Of a stretch of DNA of 10,987 bases, positions 1 to 8,568 are shown piece by piece. The stretch's first letter is position 1. The number at the start of each line of letters is the position of its first letter. The notes beneath the pieces were generated by a model. It saw nothing but the letters and a program-made list of their open reading frames with translations. It did no database searches and was not told the origin of the DNA. The translations under genes were made by a program, and so were the position numbers. Source of the stretch: a bacterium (lineage in GTDB: Bacteria; NPL-UPA2; JAGMAN01); NCBI GenBank assembly GCA_023130215.1, contig JAGMAN010000060.1, positions 1 to 10,987 of the forward strand. The letters run 5' to 3'.

Positions 1-140
1 CTATCCCTATCTCTCTGGAAGAGAGAACGATAGTGATGCTCCTCTTCCGGATGAACCCTCCCCCGGCTATCCTTGCTCTTCATAGCGTAAGGGGCAAGAA
101 TCCTCTCCTCTTGTTTCTGGAGTTGGCTTCTAGTCAGCAT
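1..140 (-). CDS. dgt: dGTPase-like HD-domain triphosphohydrolase, N-terminal fragment (cut by the window edge)
   Basis: Only the first 46 codons are present, and the frame is open to the left edge. The translation begins MLTRSQLQKQEERILAPYAM and continues with a K-S-K-D-S-R-G-R segment and then F-Q-R-D-R-D-R. This is the characteristic opening of bacterial deoxyguanosinetriphosphate triphosphohydrolase-like proteins, in which LAPYA..S.DSRGR and the FQRDRDRI segment precede the HD metal site. Family members hydrolyse dNTPs to nucleosides and triphosphate in the cytoplasm. The catalytic HD residues would lie beyond the edge, so activity cannot be judged. The ATG at 138-140 lies 9 bases after the stop of the upstream HTH gene and has no clear ribosome site, so translation is probably coupled. 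The thymidylate synthase and HIT genes nearby give a loose nucleotide-metabolism context. Identification rests on recall of the family N-terminus. Confidence 0.85.
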   Translation of the reverse strand, partial: MLTRSQLQKQEERILAPYAMKSKDSRGRVHPEEEHHYRSLFQRDRD

Positions 141-149
141 GGTAGCAGG

Positions 150-800
150 TTAAAAAATTCTGTTGGCAAACCGGAGGGCAGGCTTCAGGAACGCAGGAAT
201 GGGAACCTCTAAAATGGGCAGGAGGAGGATACCAATAGCAGACAGGATAAGAAGCAGTGAGAGAATAAAGAGAAAACTGAAAAATGGACCGGCCTTCTTC
301 TTTGTTACTGGCAGGGCAACTTCGGCCCTGGCTGGTCTGGCAGGAGGAATAGAGGGCTCCTCCTTCACCTCCGCCTCTGGACGAACTTCCTCCTCCTTAA
401 TTCCGGGCATTTCCACTGTCTCCTCCTCCTTTGGAGGAAAAGGAGACGGTCTTGCCTCCTTAGGCTCTATGCGGATTGGCTTCTCCTCCCCCAAGGGTAA
501 CGTCTTTCCCTCTTCTGATGGCTTCTCTTCCTCAGGGGTAGCAAGAAAGGGCGGCTCTTCAGTAACTGCCTCAGACTTTTCCTCTGCTTTTTCCTCCTTT
601 ACCCCAGGCGCAGTTTCCTCCTTCATTCCGGGGGATTCTTCAGTCATATAATTAACGACATCATCTTCCTTAAATTTGGCCAGATCGCCCTCACCGGTTG
701 GTTCAAGTTTACCTTGTTTAATCAAATCATTTAGTTTAGCCTGGTCAACCTTTAAGAGTTTCAGTACATCTTCCCGGCTCAGATAAGGTTCCTCAGCCAT
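150..800 (-). CDS. Helix-turn-helix protein with acidic linker and C-terminal membrane anchor
   Basis: This is a 216-residue protein from the ATG at 798-800. Residues about 6-52 (YLSREDVLKLLKVDQAKLND, then ...GKLEP...FKEDDVVNYM) look like the excisionase/MerR-type winged HTH (HTH_17-like) that binds DNA. Residues about 55-165 form a Glu/Lys/Pro-rich, probably disordered linker containing three PG[MVI]KEE motifs (about 57, 65 and 132). A KKK stretch precedes one hydrophobic segment at about 173-196, followed by a short tail of about 20 residues. The positive-inside rule puts the HTH in the cytoplasm and the tail outside. It overlaps the end of the upstream coiled-coil gene by 8 bases, so the two are probably co-translated and may work together. 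I infer a DNA-to-membrane tether or a membrane-bound regulator. RodZ is a loose architectural analogue (HTH plus membrane segment) but has a different HTH class and a large periplasmic domain. Confidence 0.85.
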   Translation of the reverse strand: MAEEPYLSREDVLKLLKVDQAKLNDLIKQGKLEPTGEGDLAKFKEDDVVNYMTEESPGMKEETAPGVKEEKAEEKSEAVTEEPPFLATPEEEKPSEEGKTLPLGEEKPIRIEPKEARPSPFPPKEEETVEMPGIKEEEVRPEAEVKEEPSIPPARPARAEVALPVTKKKAGPFFSFLFILSLLLILSAIGILLLPILEVPIPAFLKPALRFANRIF

Positions 801-1785
801 TTTCCCCTCCTCTCTCAATTACCTCTACTCGATCATTCTCCCTGATCCCTTTGATGGTCATCTTATCAGCTACTTCCACCACAATAGTCACCGGCTCAAT
901 TCTGCTCAGTTTCATCTCCTTCACCAATCTGCCATCTCTATAGACAGAGAGAAAGGGAGAAATGGTAGAGCCTGCTTCCTTTCCCAGAGCCACCGTTAGA
1001 AAGCTTGGACTCTGAACAGCCCATATCTTTCCGCTCAACTTCTCAGATTCCAAGAGATGGCTCACTCCCGGCAACAAGTTCAGCTTCACCTGGTCATTTT
1101 CCTTAATTCCTTTCAAAGAGGTTGCCTCGGCAACCCTGGCCACCATGGTCATATAATGGATCTGCTTCGCTTTCACTTCCTTAATTAATTTCTCACCTCT
1201 ATAGACTAAGATAGTTGGTTTAACATCACCGGCTGCTCCCTTCTCCAGTTCAATGCTCAGAAAAGGACTATAGACATAGGAAAGTTTTCCTCCAATCTCC
1301 CTGGATGGTAAGGCAGAAATTGCTTCTCCAGGAACTTCAATTTGTCCCTTCACTTCAGGGGCAGCTTCTTCCACCATCTTCCTCAGGGCTAACCATTTCT
1401 GCTCTATCCCTTTATATTCCTTCTCATAAAAATTTTTGGCTGTCTTTAACTTTTTGAATTCTTCCTCCAGGGTGGCTCTTTCTTTCCTCTCCTTCTCTAA
1501 GTCTTTTTTCAGGGAAGCTGCTATTCGGTTGAGGCTCTCCCGGAGTTCATTCCTTAACTTCTTCTCTTGCTTTAGCTCTTCCTGGAAGGCAACTTTTTGA
1601 CACTCGTTCTCTTTCTCCAGGGCATCTTTTTCCCGGGTGACTTTGATTAACTGGCCTTCTTTCTCCTCTAAAGACGAGGACAGGGCCTCTATCTGCTCTT
1701 CCCAACTTCCTACTACTTTAAGGACAACGATGATTGCTCCCAGGCTGATGAGAAATAGTTTTATAGTTGCGCTTTTTCTGATCAT
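793..1785 (-). CDS. Membrane-anchored coiled-coil protein with two tandem beta-rich C-terminal modules
   Basis: This is a 330-residue protein that I cannot match to a named family. A short basic N-terminus (MIRKSATIK) is followed by one transmembrane segment at about 8-26. A long charged heptad-like coiled coil runs over about 28-142, and two copies of a module of about 75 residues follow at about 164-237 and 250-324. Both copies read G-K-[LI]-x2-V-x-SP, then VYR-x-G-x-L-[IV]-KE, and end in KGI-[KR]-END-x-V. The topology predicts an inner-membrane anchor with the coiled coil and modules outside the cytoplasm. A near-perfect AAAGGAGGT site lies 9 bases before the ATG, and a strong promoter lies just upstream. 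The last 8 bases overlap the HTH membrane gene, suggesting a partner role. The module resembles the C-terminal domain of the CsgG-like protein at 7645-8568. Function is unknown; a periplasmic scaffold is an inference. Confidence 0.87.
   Translation of the reverse strand: MIRKSATIKLFLISLGAIIVVLKVVGSWEEQIEALSSSLEEKEGQLIKVTREKDALEKENECQKVAFQEELKQEKKLRNELRESLNRIAASLKKDLEKERKERATLEEEFKKLKTAKNFYEKEYKGIEQKWLALRKMVEEAAPEVKGQIEVPGEAISALPSREIGGKLSYVYSPFLSIELEKGAAGDVKPTILVYRGEKLIKEVKAKQIHYMTMVARVAEATSLKGIKENDQVKLNLLPGVSHLLESEKLSGKIWAVQSPSFLTVALGKEAGSTISPFLSVYRDGRLVKEMKLSRIEPVTIVVEVADKMTIKGIRENDRVEVIERGGENG
804..813 (-). promoter_or_regulatory. Ribosome binding site that fixes the HTH-gene start
   Basis: On the minus strand the sequence AGAGGAGGGG lies 3 bases before the ATG at 798-800. 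It supports that ATG over the in-frame TTG six codons upstream (816-818), which has no such site and would place the purine run inside the gene. Confidence 0.8.
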
Positions 1786-1839: not shown

Positions 1840-2341
1840 AGATTTTATGTTCCTCTCCCGCGGCCCTGGACGCGGCCACTAATTTCTGATAAGTGTCCCT
1901 CAGAAGCTCAGGAATCACCTTCGTCTCCGAGATTACAGGCATGAAATTGGTGTCCTCCGTCCATCGGGGCACGATGTGAAGGTGAAGGTGGTCCTTCACC
2001 CCAGCCCCCGCTGCCTCTCCTAAATTCATCCCAATATTAAATCCATGAGGATGTAGTGCTTCTTTTAGGAGCTTTATTGCTTTCCTGGTCAGAACCATCA
2101 ACTCTAAGAGCTCCTTCTCCTCTAATCCCTCCATGCTGGACACGTGTCTTGCCGGAACGACCATCAGATGTCCATTGTTATACGGATAGATATTCAGGAC
2201 GATAAAACAGCTTTTCCCCCTGGACAGGACATAGTTTTCTCTATCTTTGGTGTCCTTCCAGTTTTCGCAGAAAAAACAGCCTGAGCGCTTCCCTATAGCC
2301 ATGATATATCCCATCCTCCAGGGAGCCCAGATTCTCTTCAT
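1826..2341 (-). CDS. HIT-family (histidine triad) nucleotide hydrolase/phosphorylase
   Basis: This is a 171-residue cytoplasmic protein. The histidine triad H118-L-H120-L-H122-I-V, followed by PRW, is complete; H120 is the expected nucleophile that forms the nucleotidyl-histidine intermediate. The N-terminus reads IWAPWRMGYI and then C22-F-F-C25, which with His66 could form the zinc site seen in Ap4A-phosphorylase-like HIT proteins. The core N-x-Y-P-Y-N-N-G-H-L-M-V-V-P-x-R-H is typical of the fold. Members of this branch cleave diadenosine polyphosphates (Ap4A, Ap3A) or other AMP-linked compounds; the exact substrate cannot be read from the sequence. The ATG overlaps the stop of the thymidylate synthase gene by 4 bases (ATGA), so the two are translationally coupled. 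The end of the gene also carries the promoter of the next operon. Confidence 0.92.
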   Translation of the reverse strand: MKRIWAPWRMGYIMAIGKRSGCFFCENWKDTKDRENYVLSRGKSCFIVLNIYPYNNGHLMVVPARHVSSMEGLEEKELLELMVLTRKAIKLLKEALHPHGFNIGMNLGEAAGAGVKDHLHLHIVPRWTEDTNFMPVISETKVIPELLRDTYQKLVAASRAAGEEHKIFDRF

Positions 2342-3159
2342 GGAATGTTTTCTTTAGCCAGTCTCCTTCTTCCTTCCTCAAAGAAGGGCTCGGCAGACTG
2401 AGTTGTCCAGGTTCTCTCCCGGAAACTTCGCTTCTTTAGTGTCTCTAAAAATTTTTTGAATTCCTGGTAATACGAGCCATAAATGTGGAAACTATCTGTT
2501 ATATCCACATGGCGTCCGACCAGGACCTCTTCTCTTAGTTTCTCTCCCAACTTTTCTGCCAATATCCTCTGCATGTCAGTAAAGACAAATAGGTTCATAA
2601 AAGCGGCCTTATAACCATCCCTGGAACGCCAGTGACTATTCATATTGAGAATAGCTTTGCCATCTGCTCTACGGGAGATACGGAAGAAGAGACGCTGGAG
2701 ACAAGGAGGGTCTGAAGCAGGAGGGTCGCTCTGCACATTCCAGGTAATAGCCTGAGCCCGGCGAGAGTAAGGAATCTTAGCTAACTTATCAATAATGTAG
2801 TTAATCTGGTCTATTTTCTTTCCTTCCATCTCATATTTAAACAATCTCTGATGATAGGTATAAGTCCATTTCCCCTCGTCCGGCTTAATCCAGTGGTCAT
2901 GCACTCCATTTATAACTTCCTGCCGATAAACTTCCAGGTCTTCCAATCCTCCCGGGAAAGCCCGGTGGATTCTCGGCTCGGCCATTGGCTCCTGGATAAC
3001 CATAATCATAGTGCAGTCACGACTTGGAGGGTCTCCTTCCCGATCGTATTCAGTCCGGATAGCAAGCCCCTTTTCCCAGGTAGCCAGGACGGCTTTCTCC
3101 CAAACCTCTGGAACAGTTCTCCCCTCAACTTTTATGACTGGAATGCTCACGCCTGACAC
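2338..3159 (-). CDS. thyA: ThyA-type thymidylate synthase, divergent
   Basis: This is a 273-residue protein, close to the family's usual length of about 264. ThyA converts dUMP and methylene-tetrahydrofolate to dTMP and dihydrofolate in the cytoplasm. The nucleotide-site landmarks are present: S132-R133-R134, the catalytic Cys153 in DPPCLQ, R178-S179-x-D181, N189 (8 residues after the Asp, as in E. coli D169/N177), and H225-x-Y227 in DSFHIYGSY. Asn at 189 favours dUMP over dCMP. The N-terminal third lacks the usual ELLWFL-type segment, and the C-terminus (KENIP) differs from the classic ...VAI, so this is a distant branch or a related pyrimidine methylase/hydroxymethylase. The start is uncertain: GTG at 3157-3159 and GTG at 3148-3150 both lack a ribosome site, and the frame is open back to 3180. 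It follows the peptidase gene by about 21 bases and overlaps the HIT gene. Confidence 0.85.
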   Translation of the reverse strand: MSGVSIPVIKVEGRTVPEVWEKAVLATWEKGLAIRTEYDREGDPPSRDCTMIMVIQEPMAEPRIHRAFPGGLEDLEVYRQEVINGVHDHWIKPDEGKWTYTYHQRLFKYEMEGKKIDQINYIIDKLAKIPYSRRAQAITWNVQSDPPASDPPCLQRLFFRISRRADGKAILNMNSHWRSRDGYKAAFMNLFVFTDMQRILAEKLGEKLREEVLVGRHVDITDSFHIYGSYYQEFKKFLETLKKRSFRERTWTTQSAEPFFEEGRRRLAKENIP

Positions 3160-7644: not shown

Positions 7645-8568
7645 CTACGGTAGGTGTATTTTCATACCTTTCTTGATTTTATCAGCACCCTCCAGCATTG
7701 AGCAGATGGATAGTTTCTTCTTCACAGTAACAACTTCAATCTTTCCAACTATCTCAATTGATTCATCCAGAAGTTCCCCGGTATCCGGGTCTCTAATTTC
7801 TTCAACATTGCCCACTACAAACGCCTGTCCCTTCCGGACACCTTCTCTTTCTCCGCGGTTAATGTAAACTTTATCGTTTCGGACAAGCACCACTGACCCG
7901 GTCCACTGAATGTCATCAAGCTGCCCAACAATAAATTTGACAGCTTCGTCAATAGCGGCTTCCATTGCTTTGCCAACATTTGTTTTCTTGAAGCCCCCCA
8001 GGTCTGTGCCCCAATCCTTATCTGCGAAACCAAATCCCAGAGAACTCTTGCTTGCTTTTCCAACGACCTTCTTTGAGGCACAAACCTGCCCGGTAGTTGA
8101 GTCAACTACGTATATCACTGCATTGATTTCAGCCGTGTCTTTGCCTGCCTTCACCTTGAACCCCTTTATCCTGATGCCTCCGCCACCTCCAGTTGTGCTA
8201 GCCTGGAAATGGGTTATTTCCCCTTTCACCATGAGTTGTGCCGGGGTCATATAACCGATCTTTGGTGTCTTCTTTCCTCCGGCAGCTCTTCCGCTTGCAC
8301 CAAAATCCTGTTCAGCCATTGCTGTGGCACGCATATCACTTTCACCGAGGACAATAAAGCGCCCTGTCTGATTGAGCGAATCTGTAAGGATGGCCCCAAA
8401 GGTGTCACCTATTGCCAACTGTCCGGTCCAATTAGACCTGTTCTCAAATCTTGCTACTGTGATGGAATACCGTAGATTACCTTCCGCTTCTGCTCCTGCT
8501 TTTGCGTAAACACACATTGCAAGAACAAAGAAGCAAACTGTCAGCACTGTCATCTTTGCAATTCTCAT
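7645..8568 (-). CDS. CsgG/FlgT-like secreted protein with C-terminal beta-rich module
   Basis: This is a 307-residue exported protein. The signal peptide covers about 1-24, with a likely AKA/GA cleavage. LAMC (16-19) resembles a lipobox, but Met before Cys is unfavourable, so lipidation as in E. coli CsgG is doubtful. Residues about 32-216 match the CsgG family: SITVARFENRS, IGDTFGAILTDSL, GRFIVLGESDM, then an AQLMVKGEITHF strand and NAVIYVVDSTTGQV. Gly-rich GGGGG sits at about 127-131. Residues about 222-306 form a separate domain (WTGSVVLV...VYINRGEREGV...IVGKIEVV...ADKIKKGM) like the C-terminal domain of FlgT and like the repeated modules of the protein at 793-1785. CsgG proteins build outer-membrane or periplasmic complexes; no curli or flagellar gene is nearby. 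A strong GGAGGAGGT site lies 5 bases before the ATG. The gene is a single unit between its own promoter and terminator. Confidence 0.88.
   Translation of the reverse strand: MRIAKMTVLTVCFFVLAMCVYAKAGAEAEGNLRYSITVARFENRSNWTGQLAIGDTFGAILTDSLNQTGRFIVLGESDMRATAMAEQDFGASGRAAGGKKTPKIGYMTPAQLMVKGEITHFQASTTGGGGGIRIKGFKVKAGKDTAEINAVIYVVDSTTGQVCASKKVVGKASKSSLGFGFADKDWGTDLGGFKKTNVGKAMEAAIDEAVKFIVGQLDDIQWTGSVVLVRNDKVYINRGEREGVRKGQAFVVGNVEEIRDPDTGELLDESIEIVGKIEVVTVKKKLSICSMLEGADKIKKGMKIHLP

Follow-up and report, generated by a model that had tools for sequence, protein, structure and literature searches.

The window, that is, the whole stretch of 10,987 nucleotides that was analysed, carries two neighbouring minus-strand genes, one for a coiled-coil protein (CC) and one for a membrane anchor protein with an N-terminal HTH domain, and on comparative sequence evidence these two genes are one evolutionary unit. 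Their products probably form one inner-membrane complex (a probability of about 0.55 was assigned), a trans-envelope scaffold that connects a partner in the cytoplasm with a rod in the periplasm. The window corresponds to contig C94 of the NPL-UPA2 genome G000 (1.01 Mb, 136 contigs, ~90% complete). As the NPL-UPA2 genome Unc8, of the same size class, encodes lipopolysaccharide and peptidoglycan pathways (PMC6305446), a periplasm is expected in the host.

The CC gene (793–1785, minus strand, 330 aa) was assigned from its ORF and translation, hydropathy, AlphaFold2 model m2fe4328b07e3, the repeat of its C-terminal module, and homologues in 3 phyla. The anchor gene (150–800, minus strand, 216 aa) starts with an ATG at 800 behind a good ribosome site and ends at 150; its assignment was made from the ORF, an HTH_17 match, AlphaFold2 model m6f3a47605624, the excisionase/BldC/MerR/CbpM fold and a linker motif. 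Both minus-strand ORFs and their 8-base overlap (793–800) are as given in the preliminary description. The overlap is not conserved, and the spacing between CC and anchor genes ranges from about -8 to +53 bases in relatives. Just 5' of CC, the promoter claimed for the pair was recovered as a minus-strand promoter-like site (1839–1811; TTGACA-17-TAAAAT with an extended TG, 11/12 consensus matches), and similar sites were located 5' of CC in G007 and G005. At the other side of the pair is the start of a dGTP triphosphohydrolase-like (dGTPase) gene (1–140, minus strand), which is cut by the contig end and was identified by the NCBIfam dGTPase match of the G007 orthologue. Compared with same-genus genomes, dN/dS was 0.22–0.23 for the anchor protein and 0.24–0.36 for CC; by this measure, purifying selection acts on both genes.

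Profile searches located CC in all nine NPL-UPA2 genomes examined and also in two further small phyla (the G258 group and the G224 group). Elsewhere, two overlapping genome sets (290 and 386 genomes, mostly outside the three phyla) gave coiled-coil noise only, and a single-protein scan of GTDB contigs gave no matches. Weak CC matches in G035, G140, G081 and G067 were discarded as coiled coil only, with no pair, and NCBIfam SMC matches to CC as coiled-coil noise; the matches in G185 and G233 were weak and of a similar coiled-coil type. With the anchor profile, one gene each was found in 17 of the 21 genomes of the three phyla, and none in 20 other, control genomes (0/20). For G006 (contig C25, L018 5226–5450), an N assembly gap lies inside the CC start, and the gene start is repeated before the gap.

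In 16/16 genomes in which the contig continues (G000–G008, G258, G121, G292, G293, G224, G295 and G296), CC is followed immediately by the anchor gene on the same strand; G082 and G291, which look like exceptions, are broken contigs. A dedicated trans-membrane pair had been proposed for the window, and co-inheritance, seen as adjacency in all testable genomes of three phyla, together with the pair's own promoter, agrees with that proposal. The neighbours of the pair differ by phylum while the pair itself stays together: a dGTPase gene is directly downstream in every NPL-UPA2 genome examined, scpAB in the second phylum (G258 group), sometimes preceded by an M50 peptidase gene, and ktr potassium-uptake genes in the third (G224 group). 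That CC and the anchor protein are unrelated membrane proteins merely sharing an operon is highly improbable, as 16/16 adjacency across three phyla in changing surroundings argues against it.

A methanogen-type thymidylate synthase-like gene is present at or near the upstream side of the pair in parts of two phyla. In the window, the divergent thymidylate synthase-like protein encoded at 2338–3159 is closest to TIGR03283, below the cut-off (tested on the G007 orthologue), and a relative lies immediately next to CC in G292 and G293, which belong to another phylum. Directly upstream of CC, an AAA ATPase gene was observed in G003 (L021 12981–14612) and G004 (L022 10406–12034). At 7645–8568 the window encodes a CsgG-like protein with a FlgT_C-like C-terminal domain.

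By hydropathy, CC has a single strongly hydrophobic segment (residues 8–26), for which the positive-inside rule predicts an N-in/C-out topology. Structure prediction gave a coiled-coil helix plus two beta domains for CC, and an HTH, disordered linker, membrane helix and tail helix for the anchor protein, in AlphaFold2 models built on shallow alignments (11–12 sequences). The CC model (mean pLDDT 80.8) consists of one helix (residues 4–141) and beta domains at 162–237 and 249–323, with a flexible hinge between the end of the coiled coil at residue 141 and the beta modules. The coiled coil comprises ~115 residues, which as one continuous helix would span at most 17 nm. The beta modules are tandem duplicates of each other (41% identity over 78 residues, E 3e-19), and a single module is found in CC outside NPL-UPA2 and in family f4. 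A PDB sequence search with the CC profile matched mostly coiled-coil proteins. When the CC model was compared with PDB folds, no match had an E below 0.001, and for the beta part VIA gave Z ≤4.4, so no PDB fold was assigned to that part.

Two related proteins were noted outside the pair. In G296 (contig C115, L070 6353–7471), a T2SSB/PilP-like protein encoded between pilO and a secretin gene has a coiled coil and a C-terminal CC-type beta module, and the module is thus also present in a pilus/secretion operon. In G001 and G002 (L046 442–1167; L048 2575–3276), a one-module CC paralogue without an anchor gene separates hisA from hisI within the histidine operon.

The anchor protein likewise has a single strongly hydrophobic segment (about 168–200), preceded by KKK, and the positive-inside rule predicts that it is N-in with a short external tail. 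With one hydrophobic segment in each protein, this predicted topology puts the HTH inside and the coiled coil outside, which is the arrangement that the preliminary description had given. In its AlphaFold2 model a confident HTH (residues 6–55) is followed by a disordered linker (56–165), a membrane helix (172–197) and a tail helix (203–215); this domain order and the HTH_17 match substantiate the excisionase-like HTH, linker and C-terminal membrane anchor described earlier. The linker is long and acidic/proline-rich. After the membrane helix, the external tail is only 15–20 residues long and is modelled as helical. A PDB sequence search with the anchor (HTH) protein alone gave no matches.

Conserved across lineages in the anchor protein are the membrane helix, the tail (usually IPxFL) and a linker motif, with the variants RIEP (residues 110–113 in the window protein), VIEP, IIEP, VFTP and VIKP. 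The motif [VRI][IF][EKT]P occurred in 9/9 lineage representatives vs. at most 4/9 in 5000 composition-preserving shuffles, a wide margin, although the pattern was defined after inspection of the alignment and the shuffle test therefore overstates significance. A likeness between the tail (IPAFLK) and the C-terminal peptide of FtsZ was rejected because the tail is on the predicted outer side and varies.

The domain orders of both proteins invite comparison with the cell-elongation machinery. The anchor protein resembles RodZ in its cytoplasmic HTH, linker, one membrane helix and external C-terminus, and CC has the domain order of MreC, in which a membrane helix leads into a coiled coil in the periplasm and then into a pair of beta domains; Foldseek with the CC model also returned weak MreC rows (E 0.02–0.09), and the VIA match covers a helix. 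The HTH of RodZ serves MreB binding, not DNA, according to work cited in PMC6705773. On such grounds the pair could be a divergent RodZ/MreC-type part, with the HTH arm binding MreB and CC acting as a second MreC, but this is unlikely. RodZ has HTH_25, for which there was no Pfam match, whereas the anchor protein has HTH_17, a long disordered linker and a dispensable HTH, and its short tail stands where RodZ has an external C-terminal beta domain. The MreC profile (PF04085) had no match in the window CC, whose modules, unlike those of MreC, are tandem-duplicated, and a true MreC is encoded in a separate mreB-mreC locus of G000 (contig C93). G004 and G258 also have the pair, and MreC was found in neither of them (both are ~92% complete, and this may reflect incomplete assemblies). 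As there is no Pfam match, as MreC is elsewhere in G000, and as the pair is kept in these two genomes, the CC-anchor unit is probably neither RodZ nor MreC.

The window HTH matched Pfam HTH_17 (PF12728) with E 1e-5 and 26.1 bits in the protein scan and with 29 bits in the genome scan, which is borderline at the curated cut-off of 27 bits (below it in the former, above it in the latter). In hmmscan of the anchor proteins, only HTH_17 was matched, plus one weak MerR_1, and HTH_17 matches at E ≤0.5 were obtained for 5/16 anchor proteins. In fold, the domain belongs with excisionases, BldC, MerR proteins, CbpM and DafA (Z 5–7 over 50–60 residues, all tied); in the test against the CbpM/DafA fold, 3ucs_B (Z 6.9, 60 residues, 2.8 Å) was tied with the DNA binders.

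Presence of the HTH was variable. It is present in 8 anchor proteins (G000, G006, G007, G008, G258, G121, G292 and G293; families f1, f3, f118 and f223) and absent in 8 others (G001–G005, G224, G295 and G296; families f2, f4, f5 and f79), and 4/8 families are without it while the rest of the pair is kept. The G082 anchor sequence is cut and was placed in neither group. The G005 anchor protein keeps the first residues of the HTH proteins (MGEETPLSQED) without the remainder of the domain, and the loss there looks like a deletion. Where present, the HTH domain is under strong constraint (dN/dS 0.13 within the genus). Sequence charge counts gave net charges of -2, 0, 0 and -5 in NPL-UPA2 and of +2 and 0 in the second phylum, with at most two Arg in the pair's HTH domains, vs. 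+2 to +7 (mean 4.3) in control HTH_17 domains from other proteins (n = 25). In G258 and G292 the wing of the HTH carries a basic patch (RKFK) and the domain is neutral to slightly positive, which makes DNA binding possible in these two.

The preliminary description had the pair link DNA, or a regulator, to an envelope scaffold, and the link to DNA was not supported. A membrane-tethered DNA binder, in which the HTH fixes the chromosome, or some regulatory site, to the membrane while the rod in the periplasm acts as sensor or anchor, would suit a fold shared with DNA-binding excisionases, BldC and MerR proteins, and a pair that adjoins scpA/scpB in one phylum and lies near dNTP-pool genes in NPL-UPA2. 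However, neither scpAB nor the dNTP genes are neighbours in every lineage, the HTH is absent from eight anchor proteins whose pair is kept, and its charge (-5 to +2 vs. +2 to +7 in the 25 controls) and ≤2 Arg argue against DNA binding, which makes this an improbable account. BldC, phage Xis and other HTH_17 DNA binders have the same fold and Pfam family as the N-terminal domain of the anchor protein, but they are basic, whereas the latter is acidic to neutral and membrane-anchored. As the pair is kept without it and its charge is acidic to neutral, the HTH is not the defining part of the pair. Dispensability, charge and a dN/dS of 0.13 agree better with binding to protein than to DNA, and the HTH is probably an optional protein-binding adaptor.

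CbpM has a MerR fold without DNA-binding residues and binds a J-domain via acidic residues (PMC4063869), which is a precedent for protein binding by this fold. CbpM and DafA resemble the anchor HTH in having a MerR/excisionase fold that is acidic and probably protein-binding, although they are soluble and the anchor protein is held in the membrane. The CbpM-CbpA and DafA complexes were among the structural matches, and in G006 and G007 dnaJ follows two genes after the dGTPase gene. Even so, recruitment of a J-domain chaperone to the membrane by an acidic HTH acting like CbpM or DafA is very unlikely, since these matches tie with DNA-binding members of the fold, dnaJ was not seen in the pair's cluster in G008, G258 and G224, and the HTH is dispensable.

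The statement that no named system has this layout was in line with a literature search on membrane-anchored excisionase-type HTH proteins, in which no matching system was found. One of the closest comparisons is SweD of Bacillus subtilis, a membrane HTH protein that works with its partner SweC; the two are FtsEX-CwlO co-factors, each stabilises the other, and the HTH is needed for function (PMC6705773). HTH-bearing membrane pairs thus exist and act in the envelope. Like CC and the anchor protein, SweD and SweC are small, cross the membrane once each and are encoded in one operon; one of the two bears an HTH, and there is a coiled coil in addition. Compared by architecture, the two pairs differ: coiled coil and HTH are in one protein in SweD/SweC but are divided between CC and anchor here, and both Swe proteins have N-terminal membrane helices and wholly cytoplasmic soluble parts, whereas here the anchor protein has its membrane helix at the C-terminus and the prediction for CC is external. 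In the LmdC-bactofilin system (PMC10945521), a bitopic coiled-coil membrane protein joins a cytoplasmic scaffold to the periplasm. Unlike CC, LmdC has an M23 peptidase domain, and no bactofilin gene was noticed next to the CC-anchor pair. On the best reading, the CC-anchor pair is comparable to RodZ, SweD and CbpM and is a member of none of these groups.

In the proposed trans-envelope scaffold, CC would cross the membrane once, with its coiled coil as a periplasmic rod and one or two small beta modules at the rod tip contacting an envelope partner. The anchor protein would span the membrane next to it and place its short external tail at the foot of the rod, and the complex would form via the membrane helices of both proteins and this tail. 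Into the cytoplasm the anchor protein would send its long disordered arm, on which the conserved motif would dock a cytoplasmic protein; in some lineages, the excisionase/MerR-fold HTH at the tip of the arm would dock as well. Put tentatively, the pair may be a new trans-envelope coupling system of at least 3 candidate phyla, in which a DNA-binding fold is now a detachable cytoplasmic adaptor on a motif-bearing disordered membrane arm, paired in every case with a coiled-coil rod in the periplasm.

Almost all that is known of the three phyla comes from metagenomes, and few aspects of their envelope biology have been put to a test. That the HTH has been lost while the pair otherwise stays is a warning against equating every HTH match with DNA binding. 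In the conserved linker motif there is a concrete candidate docking site, and a two-gene unit kept across phyla amid changing surroundings gives good access to a conserved envelope process.
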